DNA of 64,000 nt from Bacteroidota bacterium (lineage in GTDB: Bacteria; Bacteroidota; Bacteroidia; Cytophagales; Cyclobacteriaceae). A program made the position numbers and the translations under genes. The DNA lies in assembly GCA_016178785.1 (NCBI GenBank), contig JACOSO010000026.1:1-64000 (forward strand), given 5' to 3'. Positions 1,377 through 49,235 of this stretch are shown in pieces (position 1 is the stretch's first letter; each line of letters opens with the position of its first letter). The notes under the pieces were generated by a model. It made no database searches. It was given only the letters and a program-made list of their open reading frames with translations, and was not told the DNA's origin.

Positions 1377-1419
1377 ATGACGATGAAGATCATGATTTTC
1401 CGATTATCCGTATCGTTGA
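1377..1419 (+). promoter_or_regulatory. Tandem Crp/Fnr-like operator pair A
   Basis: Two sites of the TYRAYGAT-N4-ATCRTYRA type: ATGACGAT-gaag-ATCATGAT (centre 1386.5) and a weaker one with right half ATCGTTGA (centre 1409.5), 23 bp apart. They precede the receiver/phosphotransferase operon. A poor -7 match (TACTTAGT, 1441-1448) would put the transcript start almost at the ATG at 1452, so the exact promoter is less certain than at the other sites. Confidence 0.5.
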
Positions 1420-1451
1420 TCGATGAGTGGTTTTGATTGTTACTTAGTTGC

Positions 1452-1829
1452 ATGAAAAAGATTCTGGTCGTGGAAGACGACCCCTCTATGCGTTGGCTTT
1501 TGAAAAATCTCTTGCGCAGCAGATACGAGATTGTAACTAAGAATAATGGCTTGGAAGCTTTTTCCTGGCTTTCAATTCAGAACATTCCAGATCTTATCAT
1601 TTCCGATATTAAGATGCCTGTTATGGATGGCTTTGAATTCTTAGAGAATCTGTCCATCAGTGGTCTCTATAAAAACATTCCGGTTATCATGCTCACAGGA
1701 ATTGACGAGCCTGCAACTCGCAAACGCTGCTACGACTTAGGTGCCTATTCCTATTTATCCAAGCCATTCAAGCCTAGTGAGCTCTTAGCCAAAATTGCCT
1801 TCCCATTTGTTTCAAAAATGTTTCTATAA
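1452..1829 (+). CDS. Single-domain response regulator receiver (CheY-like)
   Basis: A 125-residue stand-alone receiver domain. The start MKKILVVEDD at 1452 was chosen over a TTG five codons upstream because it matches the usual receiver N-terminus. All phosphorylation residues are present: acidic pair E8-D9-D10, phosphoacceptor D52 (ISDIKMP), the Thr of MLTG and the Lys of SKPF. There is no output domain, so it must act by protein contact or as a phosphorelay intermediate. It is the first gene of a run with two receiver-phosphotransferase fusions (the next starts 16 bp downstream), which suggests that it relays a signal to them. Tandem operator sites lie just upstream. Confidence 0.9.
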   Translation: MKKILVVEDDPSMRWLLKNLLRSRYEIVTKNNGLEAFSWLSIQNIPDLIISDIKMPVMDGFEFLENLSISGLYKNIPVIMLTGIDEPATRKRCYDLGAYSYLSKPFKPSELLAKIAFPFVSKMFL

Positions 1830-1845
1830 ACTAAACCCCCAGGTT

Positions 1846-2955
1846 ATGGAATCAACTATGCATCGTGCAGCCATTTCTCCCTCTGAAAACTTGAAAACGT
1901 ATTCACCCATTCAAGTATTACAGATACACAAGGCATCCATTATTGCAGATCAGGTAAGTGACTATCGTCCTGACGGTGTCTGTGTTTGTCACGCTCCGTT
2001 GGCCCAAACCCTGAAGATGGCCTGGATCGACAGCAGCCAAATTGATGCCGTGATTGTTGATACGGAATGCGCAATAGCAGATATTGTATCAATCCGGGAG
2101 ATTGCCGACCGAAACGGTGTTCCCCTTGTTCTCCATACTTTCAAATTTGACTGGAAAGCCAAAGAGATAGCCTTTGAAACTGGCGTTGATGAGTATCACA
2201 TCGGATACCTTGATAAGCAATTCATTAAGCGTATAAAGTTAATCAAGAGAGTAAAATCTTTCTTAAATGCAAAATCAGGCGAGCAGCAGTTGCCATTGCT
2301 CTTAGATCAAAATCCGTCTGATAAATCCTGGTTGATGAAGCGATCTTTCGACATTACCATTTCTATATTCATTATCATTCTGCTGCTCCCAATTCTATTA
2401 ATAGTTTTGCCCATCCTTAAACTGGAAACGAAAGGGTCTATATTAAGCAGCTTCAAAATAGTTGGAAAGAATTATAAGATTTTTGAGCTCTATAAATTCA
2501 AGTATCTCCCTTCAGGTAGTGATAAAAAAATAACCGGCATTTGGCAATTTTTACGGAAGCTACACCTCGTTGGGCTGCCCCAAATTATTAATGTGCTTAA
2601 AGGTGATATGTCTTTAGTAGGCAACTATCCTATCCTTGAGCAAGAAGCAGAGAAATTTACTAAAGATGGAATTGCCTGGCGGTTTTTAGCACCGGTTGGC
2701 ATTGTGGGATTGTGGCGGTTCAATCCGGCAGAAGAAAATAAAACGGACACGTGGAATACCCAGCAAGACATTGAGTATACAAAGGCAAATACGATGTGGC
2801 TGGACATTCGGATTCTATTTTACCATTTCCGAAATCTTGTAGTAGGTGGGCGAGACAGGAAAGAGAACGAATGGATGCCGCACCATCCTTCAATGGAAGA
2901 CAGCATGTCTAATTACATTTCTAAAGAGCAGGCTTTTAATGTTGCGACCAATTAA
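1846..2955 (+). CDS. Degenerate receiver fused to sugar phosphotransferase-like (PNPT) domain, probable pseudoenzyme
   Basis: A 369-residue fusion; start MESTMHRA at 1846. Residues about 20-145 resemble a receiver fold with a possible Asp (VIVDTE), but the Lys motif and the acidic pocket are lost. Residues about 165-345 match the bacterial sugar transferase domain of WcaJ/WbaP/PglC enzymes, which move a sugar phosphate onto undecaprenyl phosphate. They include the membrane hairpin (MKRSFDITISIFIIILLLP) and LPQIINVLKGDMSLVG. The catalytic Asp-Glu of DELPQ is V242-G243 here, KFRTM is KFKYL and VGPRP is VGNYP. The intact enzyme of this locus (47638-49026) keeps all three. I infer a non-catalytic, membrane-bound regulator or scaffold; a divergent active enzyme cannot be excluded. 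Confidence 0.8.
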   Translation: MESTMHRAAISPSENLKTYSPIQVLQIHKASIIADQVSDYRPDGVCVCHAPLAQTLKMAWIDSSQIDAVIVDTECAIADIVSIREIADRNGVPLVLHTFKFDWKAKEIAFETGVDEYHIGYLDKQFIKRIKLIKRVKSFLNAKSGEQQLPLLLDQNPSDKSWLMKRSFDITISIFIIILLLPILLIVLPILKLETKGSILSSFKIVGKNYKIFELYKFKYLPSGSDKKITGIWQFLRKLHLVGLPQIINVLKGDMSLVGNYPILEQEAEKFTKDGIAWRFLAPVGIVGLWRFNPAEENKTDTWNTQQDIEYTKANTMWLDIRILFYHFRNLVVGGRDRKENEWMPHHPSMEDSMSNYISKEQAFNVATN

Positions 2956-2976
2956 TCGGGCATTTAAAAAAGTATT

Positions 2977-5369: not shown

Positions 5370-8300
5370 CTATTGAAACCACAATCGGATCAAGGAGAGC
5401 AACTGATCAATTTTTACTGGTTTAACAATGTAATCGGAAGCTCCTGCCTCAATGCACTTTTGGCGATCCCCCTTCATTGCTTTAGCAGTAACGGCAATGA
5501 TAGGCAGCAGACTATTTTTGTCTTCTTCACGTATTTTCCGAGTAGTCTCATAGCCATCCATTTCCGGCATCATGATATCCATCAGTACCATTTCAATGTG
5601 AGGATTTTGATGAAGTATAGCGATTGCCTCCTTGCCACTTTCTGCTGTGACCACATTTATTTTGTAACGTTCCAGCACGGAGGTAAGGGTAAAAAGATTC
5701 CGTACGTCATCATCTACCACCAGGACAGTCTTCCCGATAAGAATATCTTCCTTGTTATGAATGTTTTCAATAATTTTCCTGGTATCAGCATGAAGTTTTT
5801 TATGATCAATATATAAATGTGAAATAGTTATATCCAGCAAATGATCTATCCAATTGGCTTGTTTGGAAACAAAGAAATTCGCGTTGAGCCTGATATTTTC
5901 GAGCTCTGGTTCGCTGAGGTTTCTGCCCGAGTAAACAATAATCGGTGTAAATGATTTCTTCGATTTTGAAATTTCGCGAATGAGTTCGTCTCCTGAAATA
6001 TCCTCCAGGTCATAATCAAGGACAATGCAATCAAACTCGCCCCCCTTGAGTCTTTCAATCGATTTTTTTCCGGCTTTTTCAATATCAACTTGAATCGAAT
6101 TGTCGAGGTAGGCTTTTTCGAGTTGAGAAGAATACAACTCGTTTTCACCAATTACTAAAATCTTCTTTGTGGCTTTATCACCAGATGTGATGATATCCTC
6201 AAAAAGTGCGTTGAGCGGCTTATTCCCGGCTTGCCTAACCGCAAAGGTCTTTGCCCCCCATTTTAGCGCGTGACTTCGGTTCTCTTCTCTTGAAATGATA
6301 TGGATGGGGATGTGCCTGTAGGCAAGATCCCTCCGCAATAGACTTATGGCTTTCCAACTGGTTGGATCTTTTGGTTTGACATCCATGATGATAGCAATCG
6401 GTGCAAGTCGATTGATGACATCGAAAATTTCGAGGTAATTGGTTGCGATGACCCCTTTAAGTCCTTTTACTCGTGCCGCATCAAGTACTGTTCTCCCAAA
6501 ATTCTGGTCCTCATCAAATACAACGACTACCTTATCTTTAGGCTGAACAGCACTTCGGTCATCTGCTATTTCGTTTAATAATTCACTTAGTGTATTCCTA
6601 TTCTCTATTCGTTCATGCGTCAACCGACCAAGCAGCGTGTTTATCTCGCTACCTGTGCTTTCTGCAGCGTATTCATTTTCGGGTGAATCTTTCATGGTTA
6701 CCCTGGAAGGCTTATCCAGAGGTAAGTAGAAGGTGAATACGCTTCCTTTTCCCGCTTCACTCTCAAGCTCAATTGTACCTCCCAATAATTCTGCTAAGCC
6801 CCGACTGATTGATAGCCCCAATCCGGTTCCGCCATACTTGCGACTTGTTGAGCCTTCCGCTTGTTGAAATGCCTCAAATACAATCAATTGTTTTTCCCTG
6901 GTAATCCCTATTCCGGTATCGCTGATGGAAAATGCTATAACCCCGGAGGCATTGTCCAAATTCGGATGACCTTGCTTCCAACCATTGCGAGCATTAAAAA
7001 TCCTGAGTTTGACTTCCCCTTTTTCTGTGAACTTAAATGCATTTGACAACAAATTCTTGAGAATCTGATTCAGGCGTTGGCTATCGGTATCAATTGAAGC
7101 GGGCAATTGATTATCGGTTTCAATATTAAATACTAAATTTTTCGATTCCGAAATTGGTTTGAAGGTCGTCTCGGCAAAGGACGCAATGTCTGCTATGCGC
7201 ACAGAAGATATATTCGCTGAAATGAAACCGGATTCTATCTTAGAGAGGTCGAGAATATCATTGATCAATTGAATCAGGTCATCACCACATGAGTGAATGG
7301 TTCTCGCATATCGAACTTGCTTATCATTGAGGTTGCCGTCTGCGTTTTCATACAGTTGCTGCGCCAGAATCGAAAGGCTGTTCAGCGGTGTTCTTAATTC
7401 ATGTGACATGTTGGCCAAAAATTCGGACTTGTATTTGGAAGTGAGCATGAGTTGCTCTGCTTTTTCTTCTAAAGATTTTCTTGCTTCCTCAACTTCTTTA
7501 TTTTTTGCCTCCACTTCATTCTTTTGTTTTACCAAAAGCAAGGCCTTATCCTGCAGCTCATCATTTGTTCTTCTCAATTCTTCTTGCTGAGTTTTAAGTT
7601 CACCCGCAAGGGATTGCGATTGTTCAAGCAATTCCTCAGTCCGAGTGTTTGTCTCAATGGTATTCAATACAATCCCAATACTTTCTGTAAGTTGTCCCAG
7701 AAAATCCAGGTGAGTCTCACTGAACGAATCCAGCGAAGCAAGTTCAATTACAGCCTTTACATTATTTTCAAAAAGCACGGGAAGGATTATCAGATTTGAA
7801 GGCTTTGCTTTGCCGAGCCCTGAATTTATTTTGACGTATCCCTGGGGAACATTGGTCAATAAGATTCGCTCTTTCTCAAACGCGCACTGCCCTACAAGGC
7901 CCTCGCCAACTTCGAATTCTTTAGGAATGTTTTCTTCCTCTTTGTATGCGTATGCAGCAAACAGTTTTAGTTTAACATTTTGCTTTTCATCCTCTTGTTG
8001 TAAGATATAAAAGGCACCATAATGTGCGGATACAACTTGTGCCAATTCGGATAATATTCGTTTGGTAACTGTGTTCAGGTCTTTCTGTCCTTGAAGCATC
8101 TGGGTAAAGGCTGCCAGATTTGATTTGAGCCAATCCTGATCCTGATTTCGGAGTGTGGTTTCACGGAGGTTGGTGATCATCTGGTTGATCGTATCTTTCA
8201 AAGCCTCCAACTCGCCCTTTGCATCAACTCGAATATTACGGGTAAGGTCTCCTTTGGTCACAGCTGATGCCACTTCAGAAATGGAACGCACTTGTGTTGT

Positions 8301-11192
8301 AAGATTGGCGGCCAGCTGATTCACGTTCTCAGTAAGCGCCTTCCATGTTCCTGAAGCTCCGGGAACACTCGCTTGCCCACCTAACCTTCCTTCTACTCCC
8401 ACTTCCCTGGCAACAGTGGTAACCTGGTCGGCAAAGACGGCAAGGGTATCAATCATTTCATTGATCGTGTCGGTCAATTGCGCCAACTCGCCCAAGGCGT
8501 TGATAGAAAGTTTTTGTTTCAGATTTCCTTTGGCAACCGATGTTACCACCTTGGCAATTCCCCGAACCTGGCCTGTTAAATTTGAAGCCATTTGATTTAC
8601 AGAATCCGTCAGGTCTTTCCATGTTCCGGCAACCCCGCGCACTTCGGCTTGCCCTCCTAATTTTCCTTCCGTTCCTACCTCGCGGGCAACTCGCGTTACT
8701 TCAAATGCAAAAGAGTTGAGTTGTTCCACCATCGTGTTGACCGTATTTTTCAACTCCAGTATTTCGCCTCGTACATCCACTGTAATTTTTTTGGAAAGAT
8801 CACCGTTAGCCACAGCGGTTGTTACGCCTGCGATGTTACGAACCTGGTCAGTAAGATTACCCGCCATTTGATTAACCGAATCGGTCAAGTCTTTCCATGT
8901 ACCGGCAACACCGGGCACGAAGGCCTGACCTCCGAGTTTACCATCCGTACCTACTTCCCTTGCCACACGCGTTACCTCGGAAGCAAAACCGCGGAGCTGA
9001 TCCACCATGGTGTTAATGGTTTCTTTCAATTGCAAAATTTCTCCGCGAACGTCAACGGTAATTTTTTTAGACAAGTCACCGTTTGCCACCGCAATAGACA
9101 CATCAGCGATGTTACGGATCTGAGCCGTAAGATTACCAGCCATCTGATTTACTGAATCTGTCAGCCCCTTCCATACACCTCCCACTCCTTTCACAGTTGC
9201 CTGTCCTCCTAATTTTCCTTCCGAACCCACTTCGCTTGCCACACGCGTTACCTCCGATGCAAAGGAATTCAACTGGTCCACCATTGTGTTAATTGTGTCT
9301 TTCAATTCCAGCATCTCACCCTTAACATCCACAGTAATTTTTTTGGACAAGTCTCCCCGGGCAACAGCAATCGTTACATCTGCGATATTGCGAACCTGGT
9401 TGGTCAGATTATCGGCCATCTTATTTACAGAATCAGTCAGGTCCTTCCATGTTCCGCCAACACCAGGCACGTCTGCCTGTCCGCCAAGCTGGCCTTCTGA
9501 TCCTACTTCGCGAGCAACACGTGTTACTTCTGAACCAAAAGAATTGAGCTGATCCACCATGGTATTGATGGTGTTTTTTAGTTCGAGCATTTCTCCCCGC
9601 ACATCCACTGCAATTTTCTTCGACAAATCTCCTTTTGCTACCGCAGTTGTGACATCGGCAATGTTCCTCACCTGGTTTGTAAGGTTGGATGCCATTTGAT
9701 TCACTGAGTCGGTAAGGTCCTTCCATGTTCCTCCTACTCCTGGTACGTTGGCTTGTCCTCCAAGCTGTCCGTCCGAACCCACTTCACGCGCAACCCTTGT
9801 CACTTCAGACGAGAAGGAATTCAATTGATCCACCATTGTATTAATGGTGTTTTTCAACTCAAGCAATTCTCCTTTTGCATCAACGGTAATCTTCTTCGAC
9901 AAATCGCCTTTTGCAACAGCGGTAGTTACACCGGCAATGTTTCGAACCTGCGCTGTTAGGTTGCCTGCCATCTGATTCACTGAATCTGTCAGATCTTTCC
10001 AGACCCCACCAACTCCCTTCACGGTTGCCTGGCCCCCAAGTTTACCTTCAGTTCCTACTTCGAGCGCTACACGTGTCACTTCAGAGCCGAAAGAATTAAG
10101 TTGATCCACCATGGTATTGATGGTGTTTTTCAATTCGAGCATTTCACCACGAACATCAACTGTAATTTTCTTAGATAAGTCACCGTTTGCCACGGCTGTT
10201 GTCACACCTGCTATGTTACGCACTTGGCCTGTCAGGTTGGATGCCATTTGATTCACCGAGTCGGTAAGATCTTTCCAGATACCACCAACTCCTTTTACCG
10301 TTGCCTGGCCTCCCAACTTTCCTTCTGTTCCCACTTCGAGCGCCACCCGGGTTACTTCGGAACCGAAGGAGTTAAGCTGATCTACCAGCGTATTGATTGT
10401 GTTTTTCAATTCCAGCATTTCGCCTTTCACATCCACCGTAATTTTCTTGGCGAGATTACCCTTGGCAATAGCTGTTGTAACTTCAGCTACGTTGCGTACC
10501 TGGTTGGTGAGGTTACCCGCCATTTGGTTTACTGAATCAGTCAGGTCTTTCCAAACTCCTCCAACACCTCTCACTTTTGCCTGTCCACCGAGTTTACCTT
10601 CGGAGCCTACCTCTCTTGCCACACGGGTAACTTCCATCGAAAAGAGGTTAAGTTGCTTAACCATATAGTTTACCTCTTTGGCAATTCGAAGAAACTCACC
10701 TTCTAACTTATGATCGGCAATTTCTTCATGCATCTGTTGCGACAAATTTCCTTTAGCCACAGAACTGATTACATTGGCAATTTGAATCGTTGGATAAACC
10801 AGGTCGGATATCAATTCATTCAAAGAATTAACGCCTTGGTTCCAGGAGCCTTTTGTACTTGGCACTGTAATTCTTTGTGTGAGTTTACCTTCTTTGCCTA
10901 TAGTATTGCGCGCTCTTGTAAACTCCTTCATCATCTTTTCGTTCATTGCAATGATATCATTGAGCATATCGAAAATCTTGCCCTTCATCCCGGCTTCATT
11001 GGAGGGCAGCCGGACGGCAAAATTTCCGTTTTTCACTTCCCTTAGTTTTTCTAAAAGTTCGTTGACAGGTAATTCTCCATTCCCATTGGAATCCGCCTTA
11101 TGATGTTTCCTAAAATCGCCTGATGAAATAACCTGACGACCGGCTGGGCCGCTTTTTTTTGTAATCGCTTTAGCTCCCATAACTGTAGACAT
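5370..11192 (-). CDS. Giant HAMP-array hybrid histidine kinase with GAF and three receivers
   Basis: 1940 residues with no transmembrane segment, so it is probably cytoplasmic. Order: divergent HAMP units (about 45-190); nine near-identical 92-residue HAMP pairs (about 190-1010), each with [26 protein letters not shown] and [11 protein letters not shown]; a GAF domain (about 1035-1180); a coiled coil; HisKA with [10 protein letters not shown] (phosphoacceptor H1264); and HATPase with [16 protein letters not shown] and GTGLGLSI. Three receivers follow. The first two lack key residues and the last is canonical (VLMDIMMP, D1872; TAKA; VKPV). The architecture resembles osmosensing Nik1-type (group III) kinases in which the HAMP array is the sensor. 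It is the last gene of an operon with a PAS kinase and the receiver-Crp protein (22-bp gap), so it probably feeds that regulator. Confidence 0.93.
8140..10615 (-). repeat. Nine tandem 276-bp HAMP-pair coding repeats
   Basis: The kinase gene contains nine in-frame units of about 276 bp (92 residues). They share words such as the reverse complement of GATTCAGTAAATCAAATGGC with small changes. The copies are similar enough at the DNA level for unequal recombination, so unit number may vary between strains or be mis-assembled from short reads. Confidence 0.85.
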
Positions 11193-11213: not shown

Positions 11214-12272
11214 CTAGTTCCTAACTTTTTCAAGCTTGGAGTGTTGCACAATTTTTAATCCCTTATCAAAAATCTCAATGAGGCCTTCATTTTTGAAATC
11301 CACAAGAGTGCGATTGAGGGATTCTGTTGTTGTTCCTACCATACCGGAAAGATCTTTTCGAGCAACAGTAATGTGCTGGTCTTCATTAGTTGATTCTGTT
11401 TGATGATTGAGTTTGATTAACACTGTGGCCACACGTTGACGAACTGATTGGTAGGCCAACTCAAGGAGCTTGTTTTCCGCCTCATACAAATTGCTGGCGA
11501 GCATCGATATAAATTTTCTCGCAATCTCTTTGTTGGCATAGATCAGGGTCAGAAAATCCTGTTGGGGAATCATGTAGATATGTGACTCCTTCAAAACGAT
11601 AGCACTTTCATTATTGGGTTTATCTTCCAGCAATGACACAAAACCAAAAAAATCACCATTGCGGTGCAAACCTGTAATCAGTTCCTTGCCGTCATTGTTA
11701 GCCTTAAAAGTTTTTACTAAACCTTTGTCGACAAAGTAGACATGCCTGGGCTGCTCACCCTCCACGAAGACAAATTCTTTTTTCTTGTAAGTTCTGGACC
11801 TTCTGTGGTCAGAAAGCTTTTGAAAATCAGGAAGCTGTTTCGTCTTGAAGAAAAAATCATCGATGTCGGTAATCGTATTGCGGAAGGTTGTCTTAATGAG
11901 GTCATTTTTCTTTAAACGAAGCTCGATGATATTGAGGAGTTCAAGCCCATCAAAAGGTTTGGTGATGTAGTCATCGGCACCCAGATTCATCCCCACCCTG
12001 AAATCGCGCATTTCAGTCTTAGCCGTAAGAAAAATAAATGGAATATTCGCGGTGGCGGGGTCTTTGCTCAAAAGATGTAAGACACCATAGCCATCTAACT
12101 CGGGCATCATGATGTCGCATAATATCAGGTCTGGCTGGCTCTGTTGCACCAGTTCAATGCCAAGCTTTCCAGAGTTGCTGGTAAGTACATCGTATCGGCT
12201 GAGTTTAAGAATAGAAGCGATGTTCTGGCACATTTCTACATTGTCTTCAATTACAAGTATTTTATGGCTCAT
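11214..12272 (-). CDS. Response regulator fused to Crp/Fnr-type transcription factor
   Basis: 352 residues. Residues 1-125 are a canonical receiver (D10, phosphoacceptor D53 in LCDIMMPELDG, FLTAK, TKPFDG). Residues about 150-265 are a cNMP-binding-type beta barrel (FVEGEQPRHVYFVDKGLVKT, GDFFGFVSLL). A long helix and a Crp-type winged helix follow, with recognition helix TTESLNRTLVDF (E317, N320, R321), laid out like the E-x-x-S-R of Fnr. It should be a phosphorylation-controlled DNA-binding protein. It lies between a PAS kinase (ATGA overlap) and the HAMP kinase. The operon promoter carries two ideal Fnr-spaced palindromes, and similar sites precede most EPS operons, so I infer that it is the master regulator of the locus and autoregulated. 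Confidence 0.92.
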   Translation of the reverse strand: MSHKILVIEDNVEMCQNIASILKLSRYDVLTSNSGKLGIELVQQSQPDLILCDIMMPELDGYGVLHLLSKDPATANIPFIFLTAKTEMRDFRVGMNLGADDYITKPFDGLELLNIIELRLKKNDLIKTTFRNTITDIDDFFFKTKQLPDFQKLSDHRRSRTYKKKEFVFVEGEQPRHVYFVDKGLVKTFKANNDGKELITGLHRNGDFFGFVSLLEDKPNNESAIVLKESHIYMIPQQDFLTLIYANKEIARKFISMLASNLYEAENKLLELAYQSVRQRVATVLIKLNHQTESTNEDQHITVARKDLSGMVGTTTESLNRTLVDFKNEGLIEIFDKGLKIVQHSKLEKVRN

Positions 12273-13498
12273 GACTTGCGTTTGTTTTGTAATGATTTTG
12301 ATGATTCTGCTGCACGTATTGATTCTCCAATTGTAGCCGGTAGTATGACCGTAAACGTGGTGCCCACATCGAGCTGGCTTTCAAAAGTGATCGTGCCTTT
12401 AAGCAGGTGAATATATTTTTGTATGATGTGAAGACCCAAACCCGTGCCTTCAATGTTGATAGCGTTGCGTGCCCTAAAGAATCTGCCGAAAATAAACTGT
12501 TGTTCATCATCCGGAATGCCAATGCCCTGGTCCTTAACTATGAACACGATCGAGCCAGGTCCTATTTCCGAAGTAATTTCAATCGTGTCACCTGATTTGG
12601 AATATTTAAGAGAATTAGAAACAAGGTTGGTGACTATGCTCCAAAACAAGTGATGATCAATGCGGGACATCCATTGGTCGCCCGAATGATTATATTTGAT
12701 TACCTGTCCCTCTCTCTTTATTATATCCATTTCAGAGAGTGTGTCTTGAATGAATTCGGGAATATTGACATCTGAATTCACTACCTCAACTTTGTTTTGC
12801 TCCAGTTTCTCCAATGAAAGGAATTCGTTCAAGATCAAGGTCAGGTTGTTAACCGCTCTCTTGATTCGATTGGTGTGAACCATCTTCTCGGTTTCATAAT
12901 TTTCTGGAGAAGTCTTTTCAATGAGAAAAGTCGAAGAGAGAATCATGGTGAGCGGTGTCCGGAATTCGTGCGAGGCCATCGTAACAAACCGCGACTTAAG
13001 TTCTCCAAGTTCCCTCTCCTTTTTCAGCGCATTTACAAGGCCTTCCTCCATAGCCTTTCGCTCTGTAAAATCCCGTACCACGCAAAGGATTATTTTGACG
13101 GGGTTCCCGCCACTTGCTAACGGCACAGTGGTGACATGATAAAACCGCCCGCTAAAACTTACTTCACAATGAACACCCTCACCCTCGAAGGTTTTTCTTA
13201 ATTTCATTACCAAATCGTCATTGAAGGGCAGGAATGGATCTGGGGGCGCTCCCTCCGATAGCAAATTTTTGAAATCCTGGTCGAACACAAAAATCCTTGT
13301 CTCAGGAAAATTGCGCAGCACCAACTCTTGAAGGCGTTTGCGGTTCGCTAGCTTTTTTTCCAGCGTCCTGCGCTCATCTATTTCTGTTTGCAGTTCCCTT
13401 CGCAGTCTTTCGATCTCACTAAGCGCATGAATCAATTCCAGTCCTTGTTTATTCGCTCTGGATTCAGCGGTATTTCGTTTAATTACATTTTGCCTCAT
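12269..13498 (-). CDS. PAS-domain sensor histidine kinase
   Basis: 409 residues, soluble. An N-terminal coiled coil (about 20-60) is followed by a PAS-like sensor (about 60-150, ending VVRDFTERK). HisKA follows with MASHEFRTPLTMIL (H177), then HATPase with N-box NLVSNSLKYSKSGD, G1 VKDQGIGIP and G2 GTGLGLHII. It is a complete orthodox kinase without its own receiver. Its stop overlaps the start of the receiver-Crp gene by four bases (ATGA), so the two are translationally coupled and this is the probable direct phosphodonor. It is first in the operon; the start codon lies about 95 bp downstream of the inferred transcription start. Confidence 0.92.
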   Translation of the reverse strand: MRQNVIKRNTAESRANKQGLELIHALSEIERLRRELQTEIDERRTLEKKLANRKRLQELVLRNFPETRIFVFDQDFKNLLSEGAPPDPFLPFNDDLVMKLRKTFEGEGVHCEVSFSGRFYHVTTVPLASGGNPVKIILCVVRDFTERKAMEEGLVNALKKERELGELKSRFVTMASHEFRTPLTMILSSTFLIEKTSPENYETEKMVHTNRIKRAVNNLTLILNEFLSLEKLEQNKVEVVNSDVNIPEFIQDTLSEMDIIKREGQVIKYNHSGDQWMSRIDHHLFWSIVTNLVSNSLKYSKSGDTIEITSEIGPGSIVFIVKDQGIGIPDDEQQFIFGRFFRARNAINIEGTGLGLHIIQKYIHLLKGTITFESQLDVGTTFTVILPATIGESIRAAESSKSLQNKRKS

Positions 13499-13598
13499 GC
13501 GAGAAGGTATTTGCCTATACTACCATTGTTATTACAATGCTCACAGCAGAATCCATGATTCAGGCCCCTAATGTGAGCCAGACAAGCCAAAATATTTA

Positions 13599-13668
13599 TA
13601 AATATAATTCATTCATCATCCTTAATTGACGATCCATATCATCAATTATTGATGATGCGTATCGTCAA
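13599..13668 (-). promoter_or_regulatory. Promoter and ideal tandem operator pair B of the sensor/receiver-Crp operon
   Basis: Two palindromes, TTGACGAT-ccat-ATCATCAA (13626-13645, centre 13635.5) and TTGATGAT-gcgt-ATCGTCAA (13649-13668, centre 13658.5), are spaced 23 bp and together form a 43-bp imperfect palindrome. Read leftward, the inner site ends in TTGA-type bases as the -33 element. Exactly 19 bp later comes TATATTTA (13606-13599), a near-perfect Bacteroidota -7 box (TAnnTTTG). The operator is therefore centred near -41.5, as for class II Crp/Fnr activators. Confidence 0.75.
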
Positions 13669-13698
13669 AATAACGACAAGCCGGTTTGTTAAGTCTAT

Positions 13699-13726
13699 TT
13701 TGAAGTTACTGCTTTGAAGTTACTGC
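13699..13726 (+). repeat. Perfect 14-bp tandem duplication
   Basis: TTTGAAGTTACTGC occurs twice head to tail between the two divergent promoters. No function is apparent; it alters the spacing between operator pair B and the export-operon promoter. Confidence 0.8.
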
Positions 13727-13749
13727 CCCCCTTTCAAAACATTTTGCGA

Positions 13750-13795
13750 GCGATGACCACAATCGTTGAATTTCAAAGAGCTCGATTATAGTTTG
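13750..13795 (+). promoter_or_regulatory. Promoter and operator B3 of the EPS export operon
   Basis: A degenerate left half (GCGATGAC), N4 caca and a perfect right half ATCGTTGA (13762-13769, centre 13759.5). Nineteen to twenty bases after its TTGA lies TAGTTTG (13789-13795). This repeats the geometry of the other sites and places a transcript start about 22 bp before the ATG at 13823. Confidence 0.6.
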
Positions 13796-13822
13796 CGCCT
13801 TCAATAACGACACGACAAAACG

Positions 13823-14608
13823 ATGAAATCCTTCGATCCCTTAAAGGTTTATGTTAGCATCACTTTCATTCTTCTGACATCTTCATGTTACTATAACAAG
13901 AGTCTGGTCTATCTGCAGAATCGTCATTTCTCGGAAAACAAAGCTACGCTGGTAGAAAGCAAGAAGACACCATACCACTTGCAGCCAGCCGACATTCTCT
14001 CCGTGCAAATCAAGAGTTCTGCTGAAAAAGAAGTATCGGGGATGTTCAATATTTCTACACAGAATTTGATGGTGGCAAGCCCGGGTACTTTATTTCTTGA
14101 GGGATACTCCATTGATGCCAGCGGAAAAATTACATTACCGATCCTGGGCGAGCTGATAGTAAAAGACCTTACGGTAGAAGAGGCTCAGCAATTTATTCAG
14201 TTGAGTGCCAATAAGTATTTCAACAATGCAATAGTAATCGTGAAGCTGATCAGCTTTAAAGTGACCGTGTTGGGAGAAGTTAAGAGCCCGGGATACTATT
14301 ATGTGTACAACAACCAGGCAACGGCTTTAGAAGCTTTGGGGATGGCAGGAGACTTGACCAATTTTGGAAATCGAAGAAACATCAAGCTGCTCCGTCAGAA
14401 GGATTCGGGCACGGAGGTGATCTTGTTGGACCTCACGAATCCTGATCTTTTAAAATCCGAATATTTTTTTCTCAAACCAGGAGACGTGCTGTATGTCGAA
14501 CCACTGAAAGCACGATCCAAGAGGTCTAACCTGGAACTCCTAAGTGTGGTGTTTGCCGCAACCACAACCGCAGTTCTCATTTTCAGTTATGTAAACACAA
14601 AAAAATAA
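13823..14608 (+). CDS. Polysaccharide export outer-membrane lipoprotein, Wza-like
   Basis: 261 residues. A lipoprotein signal (FILLTSSC, acylated Cys near residue 22) is followed by a Poly_export domain (about 50-140; YHLQPADILSVQI, GKITLPILGEL) and an SLBB-type beta-grasp domain (VTVLGEVKSPGYYYV, about 150-230). A C-terminal hydrophobic segment (VVFAATTTAVLIFSYV) would cross the outer membrane, as in Wza. It forms the exit channel for the polymer and normally contacts the Wzc-like partner encoded immediately after it. The two genes overlap at TAATG. It heads the plus-strand export operon. Confidence 0.92.
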   Translation: MKSFDPLKVYVSITFILLTSSCYYNKSLVYLQNRHFSENKATLVESKKTPYHLQPADILSVQIKSSAEKEVSGMFNISTQNLMVASPGTLFLEGYSIDASGKITLPILGELIVKDLTVEEAQQFIQLSANKYFNNAIVIVKLISFKVTVLGEVKSPGYYYVYNNQATALEALGMAGDLTNFGNRRNIKLLRQKDSGTEVILLDLTNPDLLKSEYFFLKPGDVLYVEPLKARSKRSNLELLSVVFAATTTAVLIFSYVNTKK

Positions 14609-16929
14609 TGAACGAAAAAGTAGACATCAGGGCGATTATTCATAAGCTCATTTCGAAATGGTACTATTTCCTGTTTTGTCTGGCGATCACTGTGCCTTTT
14701 GCTTATGTCTATGTGAAATTTGCAGACACCATTTACCAAGTAAGGGCATCCATTTTATTGACAGGGCAAATGAAGAACGGTATGGGGAATGAGAAATTTA
14801 TGAAGGGGATGGAATTGCTGACATCGCATACTGAATTGGAAGATGAAATAGGTATTTTAAAATCGTTCAACCTGGTGGGAAGCACCCTTCAGAAACTCGA
14901 TTTTGGTATTTCCTATTTTGAAAAGAAAAACTTCACGACTCACGAAAAGTATGGTGACGGTTGCCCTTTCAAAATTGAATTGGACTCCAGCGTTCATCAA
15001 ATTTTAGGTGTTCCTATTTACATAAAAAGAACTTCACCTGGCACTTATTCCGTGTTTGCGTCAGCAAAAAATGTTAGCACCTATAACTTTTACACAAATC
15101 AAATGGAGGGAGTAATACCCTCCTTAGAGATTGATCAAACCCTGGCCAATGAAAAACCTTTTGTCCATAAGAATTTAAGTTTTAAAATAATCTTCGATTA
15201 TCGTTACAATTTCGACCATGAGAAAGTCTATTTTTTCATTTTACAAGATCTAGGTTCGTTAACGGAAATGTATCGCGAAAAACTGGACATTAAGCCGATC
15301 TCCAGAGAATCCAATATTGTAGAGATTAACATACGCGGAAGGAATCCAAGGAAGGATATCTTGTTCCTCAACAAGCTGCTGGATGTTTACCTCGCGAATG
15401 AACTTCACAAACGAAACCAATTGGGAATAAAAACAATCCGGTTCATCGATGACCAACTCAGTGGTGTTACGAATGAGCTTAGGCAGGCTGAGGGATCTCT
15501 TGAATCGTTCAGGTCGCGCAATAACATACTCAATATAAATGCAACAGCAGAGAATTTAACAAAGACACTTGATCGACTGGAGACAGATAAATCAGCACTG
15601 GAATTAAAATTAAAATACTATAAATATATAGCCAGCGCACTTGACAAAGCAGATCTCAAAAACATTCAGACCCCCTCTACATTTGGACTTGAAGACCCAC
15701 TGCTGAATAACTTGCTTATTGAGTTGGAGAGACTCAACCAGGAGCGGATCGGATTAAACTATAGCACCAAAGACACTAATCCCGTAGTAAAAGTTCTTGA
15801 TTTAAAAATCGCCAATCACAAGAAAGCGCTAATGGATAACGTCAGCAACTTTATCCAAGCATCAACAAATGCGTTGGCAGATTTGGATCGTAAGATTGGA
15901 GAAATACAGCGCAACGTAAATGAACTTCCGAGAAGTGAACGCGAACTGGTAAACATCCAGCGAAAATTTGACTTTAATGATAATGTTTACAACTACCTAT
16001 TGGAAAAGCGGGCTGAAGCGGGAATTGCCATTGCCTCAAATACAAATGAAAAAACAATTGTAGACAAGGCACAGCAGGTGGGCTGGGGCCCTGTTTCGCC
16101 CAATAGAAGATTGATAATGATTATCGCTGTATTAGGCGGGCTTTCTTTAGCCGTGGGACTGATTATTTTGAACGATTTGATCAACAACAACCGAATCGTC
16201 ACCACAGAGGACGTAGAAAAGAGCACGCGGATTCCAACCATTGGAACCATAGTTCATGGTGCAAAACGCGACCATATCTCGGGCATTGTGGCCAATGGCA
16301 AGTCGGTACTAGCTGAGTGTTTCCGTTCACTTCGGGTTAACCTGGAATACCTTACGTTAGGTAAGGCGAAAAGTGTGATTGGTATTACTTCCTCAATCAT
16401 GAATGAAGGCAAAACTTTTTGTTCTTCGAATTTGGCGTTGTCTATGGCACAGGCGGGAAGAAAAACTGTTTTGATTGATGCCGATATGCGAAGACCACAG
16501 GTAGCCAGAGCGTTCAACTTGAAAAATGAAAAGGGGCTTTCAAATTACTTAATTGGCGCATGTTCTCTGGAAGAAATCATCAATGAAACAGGCTCAAAAG
16601 ATCTGGATGTAATTACGTCTGGTCCTATTCCTCCCAATCCGCTTGACTTGATTGGACTACCAAAGATGGAAGAGTTGATTGAAGACCTGAAACAAGCGTA
16701 TGACATGATCATTATCGATACTCCACCGGTAGGGCCGGTTTCAGAGTATGTTATCTTAATGAAATACACCGGGGCAAATATTTGCGTGATACGCTCAAAC
16801 TACACCAGCCGAAACCACCTGGAAAAAATCAACAAACTTTATGATGAGAAGAAAATTAAAAACCTGAGCATCTTATTGAACGATGCACGGATGTCCGTCA
16901 ATGGATACGCCTACTATGACTATAAATAG
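14608..16929 (+). CDS. Wzc-like chain-length determinant fused to BY-type tyrosine kinase
   Basis: 773 residues. An N-terminal Wzz domain with a first membrane helix (about 17-35) is followed by a large periplasmic coiled-coil region (about 280-480). A second membrane helix (LIMIIAVLGGLSLAVGLIIL, about 508-527) leads to the cytoplasmic bacterial tyrosine kinase: Walker A NEGKT (K602), Walker A' VLIDADMRRPQ and Walker B MIIIDTPPVGP. The end carries the usual Tyr cluster (YAYYDYK) for autophosphorylation. It controls polymer length and couples synthesis to the outer-membrane exporter. Its first base overlaps the preceding stop codon, and it belongs to the same operon as the flippase 36 bp downstream. 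Confidence 0.95.
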   Translation: MNEKVDIRAIIHKLISKWYYFLFCLAITVPFAYVYVKFADTIYQVRASILLTGQMKNGMGNEKFMKGMELLTSHTELEDEIGILKSFNLVGSTLQKLDFGISYFEKKNFTTHEKYGDGCPFKIELDSSVHQILGVPIYIKRTSPGTYSVFASAKNVSTYNFYTNQMEGVIPSLEIDQTLANEKPFVHKNLSFKIIFDYRYNFDHEKVYFFILQDLGSLTEMYREKLDIKPISRESNIVEINIRGRNPRKDILFLNKLLDVYLANELHKRNQLGIKTIRFIDDQLSGVTNELRQAEGSLESFRSRNNILNINATAENLTKTLDRLETDKSALELKLKYYKYIASALDKADLKNIQTPSTFGLEDPLLNNLLIELERLNQERIGLNYSTKDTNPVVKVLDLKIANHKKALMDNVSNFIQASTNALADLDRKIGEIQRNVNELPRSERELVNIQRKFDFNDNVYNYLLEKRAEAGIAIASNTNEKTIVDKAQQVGWGPVSPNRRLIMIIAVLGGLSLAVGLIILNDLINNNRIVTTEDVEKSTRIPTIGTIVHGAKRDHISGIVANGKSVLAECFRSLRVNLEYLTLGKAKSVIGITSSIMNEGKTFCSSNLALSMAQAGRKTVLIDADMRRPQVARAFNLKNEKGLSNYLIGACSLEEIINETGSKDLDVITSGPIPPNPLDLIGLPKMEELIEDLKQAYDMIIIDTPPVGPVSEYVILMKYTGANICVIRSNYTSRNHLEKINKLYDEKKIKNLSILLNDARMSVNGYAYYDYK

Positions 16930-18264: not shown

Positions 18265-18276
18265 TCAAAATTTAGT

Positions 18277-34213: not shown

Positions 34214-35410
34214 ATGGAAACTTCAGGGAGTAGTGGAATTTATGACATCTACAAGTCCAAGAAAGTGCTGATTACCGGCCACACAGGTTTTAAAGGCAGT
34301 TGGTTAACGCTATGGCTTAAGGAATTAGGTGCCCGTGTTTTTGGATATGCCTTGGACCCTCCCACCAATCCATCTCTTTTTGAACTTTTAGATCTTGAAA
34401 AAGAAATCGATCATGAAATCGGAGACGTCCGAGATCTTGAGCAATTAAAGAAATGTATTCAACGAGTAAAACCTGATATCATATTTCATTTGGCCGCCCA
34501 ATCTCTTGTTGGAAAGTCATACGAAGAGCCACTCGAAACAATACATGTAAATACTTTTGGAACGGTAAATTTATTGGAGGCGGTACGCCAGGTCGGGTTA
34601 GGGGTTGCCATCGTATTGATCACATCAGATAAGTGTTATGAAAATAAAGAATGGGTATTTGGATATCGCGAAACGGATACACTAGGCGGGCACGATCCCT
34701 ATTCTGCCAGCAAAGCGGCCACTGAAGTGCTGATAAGTTCGTGGAGAAATTCATTCTTTAATCCAGATGCAATTAAAGAACATGGTGTAAGGGTGGCTTC
34801 TGCACGCGCAGGAAATGTAATAGGTGGAGGCGATTGGAGTAAAAACAGAATTGTGCCTGACTGCATACGCGATCTGCAGAACCACACCTTCATTTCAGTG
34901 AGAAACCCTTACTCTACCAGGCCCTGGCAACATGTGCTGGAGCCACTCAGTGGATATTTACAACTTGGAGCAAAACTATTAGGCTCATCTAGTGAAGACG
35001 CTGCATTTTTTTGCGAGGCATTTAATTTCGGGCCACACGTTACAAACAACAAAAATGTAAAGGAACTGGTGGAAGAAATAATTGAAAGCTGGGGAAGTGG
35101 TTCCTGGAAGTGGATTTCACCAGACAAAGCAAATTATGAATCAGGGCTGCTTAACCTTTCAATTGATAAGGCCTATCACAAATTAGGTTGGCTTCCGAAA
35201 TGGAATTTTAGTGATACAATAGCCCGTACTGTAGAGTGGTATCAAACTGTAGAGTCGCATCAAAAATTTCTCCATGAGTCGACTATGATTCGCGACTTCA
35301 CAATAAAGCAAATCAGAGCGCACCAGGCAGCTCGATCCATTTCGCCCCAAACGTTACTCGCACAAGAACCAACGTCTAATTTTTTAACCAAACAATTTTA
35401 TGAAAAGTGA
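34214..35410 (+). CDS. rfbG: CDP-glucose 4,6-dehydratase
   Basis: 398 residues, extended SDR fold: NAD-binding VLITGHTGFKGSWLTLWL (Gly motif), LAAQSLVGKSYEEP, TSDKCYENKEW and the catalytic YSASKAA. The KGSWL..L and CYENKEW motifs distinguish RfbG from dTDP-glucose dehydratases. It converts CDP-glucose to CDP-4-keto-6-deoxyglucose in the cytoplasm. It is the first gene of a plus-strand cassette with a C-methyltransferase (11-bp overlap), CDP-glucose synthase, PIG-L deacetylase and an epimerase. Confidence 0.93.
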   Translation: METSGSSGIYDIYKSKKVLITGHTGFKGSWLTLWLKELGARVFGYALDPPTNPSLFELLDLEKEIDHEIGDVRDLEQLKKCIQRVKPDIIFHLAAQSLVGKSYEEPLETIHVNTFGTVNLLEAVRQVGLGVAIVLITSDKCYENKEWVFGYRETDTLGGHDPYSASKAATEVLISSWRNSFFNPDAIKEHGVRVASARAGNVIGGGDWSKNRIVPDCIRDLQNHTFISVRNPYSTRPWQHVLEPLSGYLQLGAKLLGSSSEDAAFFCEAFNFGPHVTNNKNVKELVEEIIESWGSGSWKWISPDKANYESGLLNLSIDKAYHKLGWLPKWNFSDTIARTVEWYQTVESHQKFLHESTMIRDFTIKQIRAHQAARSISPQTLLAQEPTSNFLTKQFYEK

Positions 35411-36671
35411 AAAAAAAACAGTTTCCGCAAAATGCAGGTTTTGCCAGACTCCCTTAACACATACATTCGTAGATTTAGGAATGTCGCCTTTGTGCGAAGA
35501 CCACGTAAAGCCTGAAGAGTTAAAGCAAATGGAGCCATTTTATCCGCTCCATGCTTATGTTTGTTCGAAATGTTTTTTGGTGCAAGTAGAGGAGCTTGTT
35601 TCACCGTCTGCAATTTTCACTGATTACGCTTACTTCTCCTCCTACTCTGACACCTGGCTGAATCACATAAAAAAATATACAGATCAAATACTCAAGCGAT
35701 TTGAAATTACAAGTAACAGTCTGGTAGCAGAATTAGCAAGCAATGACGGATATCTGCTACAATATTTCCTGGAAAAGAAAATTCCTGTTTTGGGCATTGA
35801 ACCCGCAGCCAACGTTGCCAAGTTTGCAATCGAAAAGGGGATCAGAACAGAAGTAAAGTTCTTTGGAAATAAAACAGCTCAAGAATTGGTGGGCCGTTAT
35901 GGAAAAGCAGATTTATTGATAGGCAACAATGTCTTGGCACATGTACCTGATATTAATGATTTCGTTTCAGGGATGAAGGTATTTCTTAAGCCGGAGGGAA
36001 CGATTACTATGGAATTTCCTCACTTGATGAGATTAGTGGAAGGGAATCAATTTGACACGATTTATCAGGAACATTTCTCGTATCTCTCTTTTACAACTGT
36101 CGAGCAGATTTTTACTCATCATGGACTTACACTATTTGATGTAGAAGAGATTCCAACGCATGGCGGATCTTTACGGATTTTCGCGAAGCACAAAGAAGAT
36201 AAATCGAAGCTGATTTCAGAAAGAGTATTGAGAATGCACGCGTTGGAAAAAAACAAAGGATTGCACTCTTTGAGTTACTACACAGACTTTAAAGAGAGGG
36301 TAAAGGAAACTAAGCGGAAAATATTAGAATTTCTCATCAACGCGAAGCGCGACAATAAAACTGTTGTGGGTTATGGTGCGCCAGGTAAAGGAAATACGCT
36401 GTTAAATTATTGCGGAGTCCGCACTGACTTTATCGACTACACTGTCGACAGAAGTCCACATAAACAAGGAAACTATTTACCCGGAACGCTAATCCCTATT
36501 TACCATCCGGATAAAATAAAAGAAACAAAACCGGATTATGTTTTCATTCTTCCATGGAATCTCAAAGACGAGATCATGGATCAGTTGTCGTTCATAACCG
36601 AATGGGGCGGACAGTTTGTTGTGCCTATTCCTGAGCTTGCCGTATACGAAACCTCAAACGTGTTGGCGTAA
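35400..36671 (+). CDS. NDP-sugar C-methyltransferase (zinc-binding N-terminus)
   Basis: 423 residues. The N-terminal zinc-binding domain has CRFCQTPL and VCSKCFLVQ (Cys pairs, about 10-65). A class I SAM domain follows (about 100-210; AELASNDGYLLQYFLEK, LLIGNNVLAHVPDI). The C-terminal domain (about 290-410) carries VGYGAPGKGNTLLNYCG and DRSPHKQGNYLPGTLIPI. This three-part layout is that of TylC3/EvaC-type sugar C-3 methyltransferases acting on 4-keto-deoxysugars. With the CDP-4-keto-6-deoxyglucose pathway alongside, the likely product is a C-methyl-branched deoxysugar. It overlaps the preceding gene. Confidence 0.9.
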   Translation: MKSEKKTVSAKCRFCQTPLTHTFVDLGMSPLCEDHVKPEELKQMEPFYPLHAYVCSKCFLVQVEELVSPSAIFTDYAYFSSYSDTWLNHIKKYTDQILKRFEITSNSLVAELASNDGYLLQYFLEKKIPVLGIEPAANVAKFAIEKGIRTEVKFFGNKTAQELVGRYGKADLLIGNNVLAHVPDINDFVSGMKVFLKPEGTITMEFPHLMRLVEGNQFDTIYQEHFSYLSFTTVEQIFTHHGLTLFDVEEIPTHGGSLRIFAKHKEDKSKLISERVLRMHALEKNKGLHSLSYYTDFKERVKETKRKILEFLINAKRDNKTVVGYGAPGKGNTLLNYCGVRTDFIDYTVDRSPHKQGNYLPGTLIPIYHPDKIKETKPDYVFILPWNLKDEIMDQLSFITEWGGQFVVPIPELAVYETSNVLA

Positions 36672-36685: not shown

Positions 36686-36756
36686 TCAACGATCTGAATC
36701 GTTCGTTTTGAATCCTCTGCGTCATTGATTGAGGGAGAATTCGGCTATTACTTTTG
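36686..36756 (+). promoter_or_regulatory. Promoter and operator pair E ahead of the CDP-glucose synthase gene
   Basis: TCAACGAT-ctga-ATCGTTCG (36686-36705, centre 36695.5) and a right half GTCATTGA (36721-36728, site centre 36718.5) are 23 bp apart. Twenty bases after the second lies a perfect -7 box TACTTTTG (36749-36756). The inferred start is about 50 bp before the ATG at 36814, giving an internal promoter within the cassette. Confidence 0.65.
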
Positions 36757-47605: not shown

Positions 47606-47637
47606 TCAGAATTCTTTGTAATAGAAAGTTTTTTAAT

Positions 47638-49026
47638 TCAATAGGCTCGTTTGTCCCCTTTAATCATATTCCAAATGGTGAGAAAAATGATTTTGATGTC
47701 AAGTGCTAGACTCCAATTCTCCAGATACAACACATCGTAGTATATGCGCTTCTCCATAAGCTCAGGATCTTTGGTCTCTCCTCGAAAACCATTGACCTGG
47801 GCGTAGCCGGTGATACCCGGAGTTATAAAATGTCTAATCTTATAAAGTTGAATGGTCTTCGAATACTTCTCCAGTTGACTGATCAAATTCGGTCTTGGCC
47901 CGACCACCGACATGTTGCCGAGCAGCACGTTGAAGAACTGAGGTAGTTCGTCCATATTTGTCTTACGTAAAAATCTTCCCACTTTGGTTATTCGCGAATC
48001 ATTCTTTGTTGCCTGTACTTCAGTAGTATTGTTGACGTACATCGTGCGAAATTTATAGCAATCGAATAGCTTGTTTTTTTTCCCGGGCCGTAACTGCTTG
48101 AAAAATATAGGCCCTTCTGAATCTAAGCGGATGGCAACAGCAATGACTGGAAATAGTATTGGAAATAACGAAAGGATTAAAGAAGCTGAGAATACGATAT
48201 CAAAGACTCTCTTCAAAATTGCATTCAATGAAATTCCCAGAGGTTCATTTCTCGGTGTGAAAACGGGGACTGAGTTGATTAGAAAAATGTGGCACTTGTC
48301 ATTAACTACTTTACTAAAATCAGGTGCGATTCTGAAGTAAATAAAATTATCGTCAGCAAACTGGGCGATTTCCTTGAGCAACCTGTCGTGAGTGAGTGGT
48401 AAAGCAAAGTATATCTCATCAATGTTCTCGCGCAGGCAAAAGTTTTTAATGTCTTTCAATTTTCCAACAACAAGTTCTTGATTGATATGTTCTTCCTCAG
48501 GTTCATCTTCAAAGAAACCCTTGAACTGGTAGCCGGCAGCTTGATGAGTCGAGAAGAACTGATAAAGTGCATTTCCCGAACTAGTTGCACCAACAATAAT
48601 TACTTTTCGTTGATCAAACCCGGAAAACTCAATGTATTTCAAGATCAATTTATACAATACCCTAATCCCGATAATAAGGATGGCTGAGAACGCATAAACG
48701 GCTGTCAGAAATTTTGTACTAATAATAAAAACCGGGAATGTCGTTAGAATAGTGACAATCATTAATAAGTGACATAGAAATGCGTTAAACAAATTGATGC
48801 TTATATTCTTTGTTAAGGAAAGCGTATCTATTCTATAGATTTTATAAAAGAACCCTGCAATAATCCAGATGAGGCTGAAGACAAGAAAAAAGGTTGTGAA
48901 CTGAGACTCGGTGATCGCGTAGGCAAAACCCAGTTCGCGCGCAATTCTAAAAGCGAACTCAATGAGCCAAAAGTCGATTATGAAAATCAGGATTTTGAGA
49001 GCAGGTGTATAATATTTGCCTTTCAT
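47638..49026 (-). CDS. Undecaprenyl-phosphate sugar phosphotransferase, WcaJ-like priming enzyme
   Basis: 462 residues. The N-terminal half has four membrane helices (about 8-125) and a CoA-binding-like Rossmann domain (KVIIVGATSSGNALYQFF). The C-terminal PNPT domain is complete: hairpin VFDIVFSASLILSLFPIL, GPIFFKQLRPGKK, CYKFRTM, FLRKTNMDELPQFFNVL with catalytic D359-E360, VGPRP and PGITGYAQVNGFRGE. It transfers a sugar-1-phosphate (often glucose-1-P) to undecaprenyl phosphate and starts repeat-unit synthesis. It is the only apparently active priming enzyme in the window; the two fusions at 1846-4047 lack its dyad. First gene of its minus operon, behind operator F1/F2. Confidence 0.94.
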   Translation of the reverse strand: MKGKYYTPALKILIFIIDFWLIEFAFRIARELGFAYAITESQFTTFFLVFSLIWIIAGFFYKIYRIDTLSLTKNISINLFNAFLCHLLMIVTILTTFPVFIISTKFLTAVYAFSAILIIGIRVLYKLILKYIEFSGFDQRKVIIVGATSSGNALYQFFSTHQAAGYQFKGFFEDEPEEEHINQELVVGKLKDIKNFCLRENIDEIYFALPLTHDRLLKEIAQFADDNFIYFRIAPDFSKVVNDKCHIFLINSVPVFTPRNEPLGISLNAILKRVFDIVFSASLILSLFPILFPVIAVAIRLDSEGPIFFKQLRPGKKNKLFDCYKFRTMYVNNTTEVQATKNDSRITKVGRFLRKTNMDELPQFFNVLLGNMSVVGPRPNLISQLEKYSKTIQLYKIRHFITPGITGYAQVNGFRGETKDPELMEKRIYYDVLYLENWSLALDIKIIFLTIWNMIKGDKRAY

Positions 49027-49073
49027 AGTTTTTCACGTTAGGAGTCAGCTCCCGATTACAAATCAACCACTAA

Positions 49074-49144
49074 ACGAAGTACCTAATTTGTGGCAGTCTG
49101 ATTCAATGATTGGTATCGTTCCATAAAAAAAACTTAATCATTGA
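49074..49144 (-). promoter_or_regulatory. Operator pair F1/F2 of the priming-enzyme operon
   Basis: Read leftward: half-site TCAATGAT (49144-49137, site centre 49134.5), then GGAACGAT-acca-ATCATTGA (49122-49103, centre 49112.5), 22 bp apart. About 21 bp further is a weak -7 box TACTTCGT (49081-49074), which would give a leader of about 43 nt to the ATG at 49026. Confidence 0.5.
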
Positions 49145-49165
49145 CTCCCGATTTCCTATTAAAAA

Positions 49166-49235
49166 TTGACGATCACTATCATCGTGTTTAGAAAACCGGG
49201 ATCATTTTTTGCGCTGAGCTTATTTCATAGAATTG
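49166..49235 (+). promoter_or_regulatory. Promoter and operator pair F3/F4 of the GDP-fucose operon
   Basis: TTGACGAT-cact-ATCATCGT (49166-49185, centre 49175.5) and a right half ATCATTTT (49201-49208, site centre 49198.5) are 23 bp apart. Nineteen bases after the second lies TAGAATTG (49228-49235), seven of eight to TAnnTTTG. The inferred start is about 14 bp before the ATG at 49254. Confidence 0.65.

Follow-up and report, generated by a model that had tools for sequence, protein, structure and literature searches.

Candidate operators of a receiver-Crp regulator across an exopolysaccharide locus in a member of the Cyclobacteriaceae

The first 64,000 nucleotides of contig JACOSO010000026.1 from a Cyclobacteriaceae bacterium (Bacteroidota; assembly GCA_016178785.1), hereafter called the window, hold an exopolysaccharide (EPS) locus with wza/wzc/wzx/wzy-like genes, sugar transferases, nucleotide-sugar enzymes, and Ig proteins with type IX secretion system (T9SS) tails. 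One palindrome recurs between the genes of this locus, which raises the question of which protein may recognize it, and to what effect. A preliminary description made from the sequence alone had proposed Crp/Fnr-type operators, a locus-wide regulon, and the product of 11214-12272 as the likely binder. This proposal was supported by enrichment, conservation, promoter geometry, and protein domains. An activator of the Crp/Fnr type quite likely uses the palindromes as its operators, and the two-component regulator encoded at 11214-12272 is the leading candidate.

The palindrome in the window and in related genomes

Three forms of the palindrome were used: the full pattern TYRAYGAT-N4-ATCRTYRA of the preliminary description, the core RYGAT-N4-ATCRY, and, for whole-genome scans, AYGATN4ATCRT. 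All nine sites quoted earlier were found at their positions. The site at 1377 has three mismatches to the full pattern and an exact core, and 26176 matches only a looser form of the motif. With up to two mismatches allowed, the full pattern matched 10 times in the window compared with a mean of 1.5 (S.D. 1.3, largest 7) in 100 dinucleotide shuffles. The core occurred nine times, eight times in intergenic DNA and once (50886) within a gene, the latter being absent from the sites quoted earlier; intergenic and coding classes rest on gene calls by a simple longest-open reading frame (ORF) rule. Intergenic DNA makes up 4722 of the 64,000 bp (7.4%), giving p = 7e-9 for eight of nine cores falling there by chance. 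As had been claimed, the motif was not seen after 52 kb, no core being present from 52 to 84 kb of the contig. The gene order of the locus is kept in the related genome G031 and partly in G027, and the conserved block stops near 53 kb; the last core lies at 50886 and the last intergenic core at 49166, so that the sites end where the conserved block ends.

A scan of the entire 4.47-Mb genome found AYGATN4ATCRT 56 times versus 5 times for the pattern read backwards, and RYGATN4ATCRY 152 times versus 20. The motif was not equally common inside genes or before unrelated genes. Among the 50 listed of the 56 AYGATN4ATCRT sites (6 being unclassified), 8 were intergenic and 1 coding in the window, versus 4 intergenic and 37 coding elsewhere (Fisher p = 8e-6). 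In G031, the listed sites outside the EPS locus comprised 36 coding and 6 intergenic ones (n = 42), with 10 of 60 sites in that genome unclassified. The four intergenic sites outside the window, among those listed for the own genome, were a left-hand promoter on contig C57 and loci L187, L192, and L193, of which L192 is the kinase promoter of a paralogous regulator. The C57 site was considered as a remote target of the regulon and rejected. In alignment, its promoter corresponds to the one at the left edge of the G031 EPS locus, and the gene behind it matches the left-end Ig protein of the window; it was therefore taken as the locus's own left-hand promoter.

The candidate operators were designated A to G, and their distances were measured to -7 boxes of the type TAnnTTTG. 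Operator A has a distal site at 1377-1396 (ATGACGATGAAGATCATGAT) and, 23 bp from it, a weaker proximal site at 1400-1419 (CCGATTATCCGTATCGTTGA). Operator B consists of two exact matches, the proximal one at 13626-13645 and the distal one at 13649-13668, which lie 29 and 52 bp before TATATTTA, the -7 box (13599-13606) of the kinase-regulator promoter, read on the minus strand. The kinase operon thus appears to carry a tandem pair at activating distance, a point not made previously. Orthologous kinase promoters have the boxes TATATTTA (G031), TATATTTG (G027), and TACATTTG (G004), each 51 or 52 bp from a site. A further palindrome (GCGATGACCACAATCGTTGA, 13750-13769), with a weak -7 box some 28-30 bp downstream, is the candidate operator of the wza operon and has counterparts in G031, G027, and G004. 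Operator C (19566-19585, exact) overlaps the stop codon of the gene for a 430-residue protein at the same junction as in G031 and G027, and operator G (26176-26195, two mismatches) stands 30 bp before TAATTTTC, ahead of the acyltransferase gene 25034-26110. The Ig/T9SS-tail gene 26256-30230 has operator D (30983-31002, one mismatch) about 750 bp upstream. A weak tandem on the plus strand (34122-34164), newly found and placed 52 and 29 bp before TATGTTTG (34184), precedes the 34214-36671 operon. A perfect TACTTTTG box at 36749 follows operator E (36686-36705, with a weak proximal half at 36709-36728) at a distance of 53 bp. Operator F comprises a far site (49103-49122), a near site (49166-49185) 52 bp before TAGAATTG (49228) with counterparts in G031 and G027, and a weak proximal half (49189-49208).

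Intergenic alignment placed all seven operators in G031, where the far F site is degenerate. Over nine sites, 82 of 90 half-site bases were identical between the two genomes, compared with 19 of 36 spacer bases and 751 of 1362 other intergenic columns, in which gaps were scored as mismatches (p = 4e-13). Half-sites that are kept while spacer and flanks diverge have the look of a protein-binding palindrome. The 13626/13649 pair retained its 23-bp spacing in G031 though the letters differ. Two counterparts, G031 4690800 and G027 65367, are coding by the longest-ORF rule, yet they align with intergenic sites. Conservation extended to orthologous wza promoters, all four of which (own genome G000, G031, G027, and G004) carry sites within 500 bp, versus none of 26 other wza-homologue promoters; the 30 loci were fetched within the genus, where 58 genomes supplied the best matches. 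The motif very probably represents a genuine set of operators for a Crp/Fnr-type activator.

The regulator, its kinase, and their relatives

The candidate binder, encoded on the minus strand (11214-12272), is a receiver (REC) fused to Crp rather than a plain Crp/Fnr protein: Response_reg (PF00072, 1.9e-25), cNMP_binding (PF00027, 1.2e-21), and HTH_Crp_2 (PF13545, 4.6e-13) follow one another. Its gene shares an operon and a 4-bp overlap with that of a histidine kinase (12269-13498, minus strand; HisKA 3e-11, HATPase_c 1.3e-24), and 92% (G031) and 73% (G027) orthologues lie in syntenic EPS loci. In an alignment of 17 sequences, receiver residues Asp10, Asp53, and Lys105 were invariant and Thr83 was present in at least 90%. 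A predicted phosphoacceptor Asp, conserved Thr and Lys, and an overlapping upstream kinase gene mark the protein as a probable response regulator; a cNMP-binding domain followed by a Crp-type helix-turn-helix places it in the CRP/FNR superfamily, and Vfr chains align to residues 144-339. The palindrome likewise resembles a CRP/FNR operator in being two-fold symmetric, with half-sites spaced as GAT-N4-ATC. FNR proper carries a cysteine cluster for its [4Fe-4S] center, and Glu and Arg of the phosphate-binding cassette contact cAMP in CRP/Vfr. FNR-type cysteines were absent in and before the cNMP domain; in the alignment, the window protein has cysteine only in its receiver. The cAMP contacts were also absent, since GDFFGELGLF of Vfr aligned with GDFFGFVSLL (Glu to Phe) and the Vfr Arg before SA fell in a gap.

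Relatives covering most of the length of the regulator occur in many Bacteroidota genera. Upstream regions of their kinase/REC-Crp operons (94/97 after near-duplicate removal, from 109 loci) were searched independently of the window motif. ATGA-N6-TCAT was the most enriched palindrome with 4-base arms, in 27 of 94 regions versus 1.2 in shuffles and versus 37 of 354 upstreams of other genes (p = 2e-5); the latter test is conservative because these control upstreams themselves contain real sites. The FNR operator TTGATN4ATCAA was found in none of the 94 family and 2 of the 354 other upstreams, and the half-sites in the window read AYGAT.

CRP and FNR activate from -41.5 and -63.5 as class II and near-class I positions, respectively. 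Near the relatives, the distances from TGAN6TCA to a perfect TAnnTTTG box downstream peaked at 29 and 51 bp (34 each), in a table deduplicated only near both peaks. Over 286 boxes and after deduplication, TGAYN4RTCA was found 33 times at 28-30 bp, 42 times at 50-53 bp, and 15 times across 98 other distances. According to the available text of a study in Flavobacterium psychrophilum (PMC9723704), the box occupies -12 to -5; on that basis, the palindromes would be centered at -41.5 and -63.5. Promoters of this kind were densest 1-2 kb from the regulator genes (0.18 per kb versus 0.01-0.06 per kb at 5-9 kb), and among 64 scanned genes behind them were 7 for cbb3 oxidase (CcoNO), 13 for Usp, and 5 for Hsp20 proteins. 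Such targets suggest that the ancestral signal was low oxygen or energy stress. The -63.5/-41.5 tandem is widespread (loci L074-L153) before ccoNO, Usp, Hsp20, and PAS-kinase genes near Bacteroidota REC-Crp regulators.

Several EPS promoters followed the same geometry. Nine of 24 EPS promoter sequences had a box with no more than one mismatch 51-53 bp from a site, and they stand for four independent promoters, each from at most four genomes; the 51-53 bp span held 10 matches in all, and no other 3-bp span exceeded three. A promoter model trained solely on non-EPS family loci was then applied to both strands of 84 kb. Its five best matches were 36749, 34184, 73967 (coding), 49228, and 13606, four of the five being EPS promoters. 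The second best, 34184, stands before the 34214 operon, where the preliminary description had listed no site. In G031, the five best matches were 4720867 (operator D region), 4723917, 4739114 (coding), 4686794, and 4726459. The second of these is the counterpart of the 34122-34164 tandem with its box at 34184, and 4726459 is that of 36749; 4686794 is intergenic at the left edge, away from the operator there. A scan of 13400-14000 for Escherichia coli-type sigma-70 promoters gave 2 matches versus 1.8 in shuffles, the E. coli-type model being uninformative in this phylum.

The EPS half-site has drifted from the family form. By hand count, C preceded GAT in 9 of the 16 half-sites of the eight intergenic window cores, compared with C before GA in 4 of 116 half-sites of the family set, which was not deduplicated; counting C and T only, the ratios were 9:7 and 4:100 (p = 6e-7). 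Such drift favors a dedicated binder over a general paralogue. An Asn in the recognition helix, present in the window regulator and seven other loci (8 rows, of which L020 and L075 are apparently one contig) and replaced by Ile in nearly all others, was considered as the cause of the C in ACGAT. It was rejected because G027, whose regulator also has Asn, uses ATGAT sites.

Proposed mechanism and alternative explanations

We infer a mechanism in which binding, activation rather than repression, phosphorylation, and a signal are linked as follows. The kinase 12269-13498 would phosphorylate Asp53 in the receiver, and this modification, in place of cAMP or an Fe-S cluster, would favor the DNA-binding dimer. 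The dimer would bind AYGAT-N4-ATCRT and recruit RNA polymerase at TAnnTTTG promoters. A tandem mode, with sites centered near -42 and -64/-65, may operate at the kinase operon, 34214, 36754, 49254, and the left-edge Ig gene, and a single-site mode near -41/-43 at the wza operon, 25034, and perhaps 19618. The kinase-regulator operon would itself be a target and is probably autoactivated, which would establish a positive feedback loop.

Several observations weigh against such a dedicated activator. The own genome encodes at least two further Crp-family proteins, a second REC-Crp protein (C67) and a Crp-like one (C89), and an ATGAT site precedes the kinase gene that belongs to the C67 paralogue. 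Before family operons, RYGATN4ATCRY was weakly enriched (12 of 94 versus 24 of 354, p = 0.05) and TGACN4GTCA was not (13 of 94 versus 33 of 354, p = 0.14). Sites in G027 and G004 read ATGAT or GTGAT rather than ACGAT; the drift is therefore confined to a sublineage. A good -7 box is absent at operators A, C, and D and at the wza operator, and also at F in G031, and the strong 13626/13649 pair is off the canonical distance towards wza. Besides the coding match at 73967 among its five best, the trained model had a coding sixth match in the contig, and the G031 kinase promoter was missing among the 16 matches listed for that genome. Regulators of the same subtype (L019, L074, L075, and L076) had no EPS-gene matches in flanks of 1.5-10 kb, a check without a positive control, the 1.5-kb flanks of L016-L018 stopping short of wza.

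It is unlikely that the sites are real operators bound by another Crp-family protein such as C67, with the EPS locus as a branch of a microaerobic regulon. Relatives of C67 do use a near-identical palindrome, equally spaced, in promoters of cbb3 oxidase, Usp, and Hsp20 genes, and a model built from these promoters finds EPS promoters as well. Against this stand the half-site difference described above and the position of the 11214-12272 regulator, which lies inside the locus, travels with it in G031 and G027, and has a strong tandem at its own operon. The same protein acting as a repressor through the same operators appears improbable. Crp/Fnr proteins are able to repress, and sites C and D lack a clear activating position, which would suit repression; several other EPS operators, however, are near -41.5 and -63.5, positions of activators in CRP and FNR systems. 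We give almost no credence to RNA hairpins (terminators or attenuators) or a dispersed repeat. Arms of 8 bp around four bases could form stems, and 19566 is at a gene end, but several sites have kept a constant distance to a -7 box downstream of them, which puts them ahead of the transcript. Moreover, the sole terminator-like match in the stretch scanned (13400-14000) is at 13453, away from the sites, the window has no Rfam match, and the divergence of spacer and flanks does not suit a recent mobile repeat. Chance is an equally implausible source. A general bias towards GAT/ATC-rich palindromes does exist, as the excess over the backwards-read patterns and the 37 coding among 41 classified outside sites indicate; against chance stand the window shuffles, the intergenic bias, and the distance peaks, and the G031 footprint contradicts it unless the alignment is wrong.

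The best reading is a phosphorylation-gated, FNR/FixK-like activator with a sublineage that came to serve a single EPS locus. We lean, with some reserve, towards a fuller account: a widespread Bacteroidota stand-in for FNR/FixK (kinase plus REC-Crp, -63.5/-41.5 tandem) would drive cbb3, Usp, and Hsp20 genes, and a sublineage would have been captured by the EPS locus, its operator drifting from MTGAY to AYGAT, and would now serve some ten promoters of a single 50-kb block as their dedicated switch. Similarities to known systems are partial. In E. coli, activator sites of CRP and FNR lie at about -41.5 and near -61/-64, and the present system shares these positions, the cNMP-binding fold with HTH_Crp, and the GAT-N4-ATC spacing. 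It differs in the N-terminal receiver, the lack of FNR-type cysteines and of the cAMP-contact Glu, and the half-site, AYGAT instead of TTGAT or TGTGA. The FixL-FixJ-FixK cascade of rhizobia also has a kinase feeding a Crp/FixK-like output, and relatives of the present regulator lie near cbb3 oxidase genes with promoters of the kind described; here, however, receiver and Crp-type output are one protein, on an EPS locus. BT4338 of Bacteroides likewise belongs to the Crp family, was predicted by comparative genomics, and is expected to regulate its own gene (PMC3878776). According to the accessible text of that report, its palindrome is wwwTATGTTnTAnAACATAwww and its targets concern sugar catabolism, and no receiver domain is mentioned there. 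A literature search, with most subscription journals outside its reach, found no paper recognizable as one on a REC-Crp regulator of EPS, cbb3, or low-oxygen genes in Bacteroidota.

The surrounding locus and implications

The wza operon (13823-19569, plus strand) encodes, according to domain searches, a wza-like export protein, a wzc-like kinase, a wzx-like flippase, and the 430-residue protein. The operon behind operator C (19618-24999, plus strand) encodes two unannotated proteins, a Wzy_C-like protein below cut-off, an acyltransferase, and a GT2 protein. The 430-, 318-, and 352-residue proteins (18277-21645) had no Pfam family at E 0.001 and no NCBIfam match, and the first was present in 4 of 58 genomes of the genus, three of these with this locus. 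Directly downstream of the regulator gene on the minus strand, and possibly in the same operon, lies the gene for a poly-HAMP hybrid histidine kinase (5370-11192, minus strand; HAMP, GAF, HisKA, HATPase_c, and Response_reg domains), with an 89% orthologue at the equivalent place in G031. The kinase gene is divergent from wza in G004 too, where the contig stops short of any regulator gene.

Between operator D and the Ig gene, about 700 nucleotides on the minus strand (30231-30950) are partly conserved with G031 and have no clear genes; a 102-residue ORF (30387-30695) has a 73-residue counterpart in G031. This stretch is perhaps a long leader. A structured RNA within it was considered and rejected (fold z-score -1.2, 3 of 20 shuffles equally good, no Rfam match). 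A multi-PAS histidine kinase (1578 residues, 11 PAS stretches) followed by receiver genes occupies 55137-61498, where the operator core is absent; it has no counterpart within the G031 stretch compared. At the right end of contig C57 (L190, L269), an Ig-repeat gene resembles the first gene of the window (1-1276, starting at the contig edge). Because of this resemblance and the alignment of the C57 operator promoter with the left-edge promoter of G031, C57 seems to continue the EPS locus leftward. Elsewhere in G031 (C1:4776853, L228), a plain Crp-family gene (cNMP_binding and HTH_Crp_2) has ATGATTCGAATCAT 38 bp before its called start and is likely autoregulated through a related operator.

If the proposed activator is correct, its regulator, operator, promoter geometry, and targets all become open to testing, and the system shows how a family of general respiratory-type regulators may be put to new use at a single surface-polysaccharide locus. 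Annotation of regulons across the phylum could draw on the promoter model, which combines tandem palindromes with TAnnTTTG.

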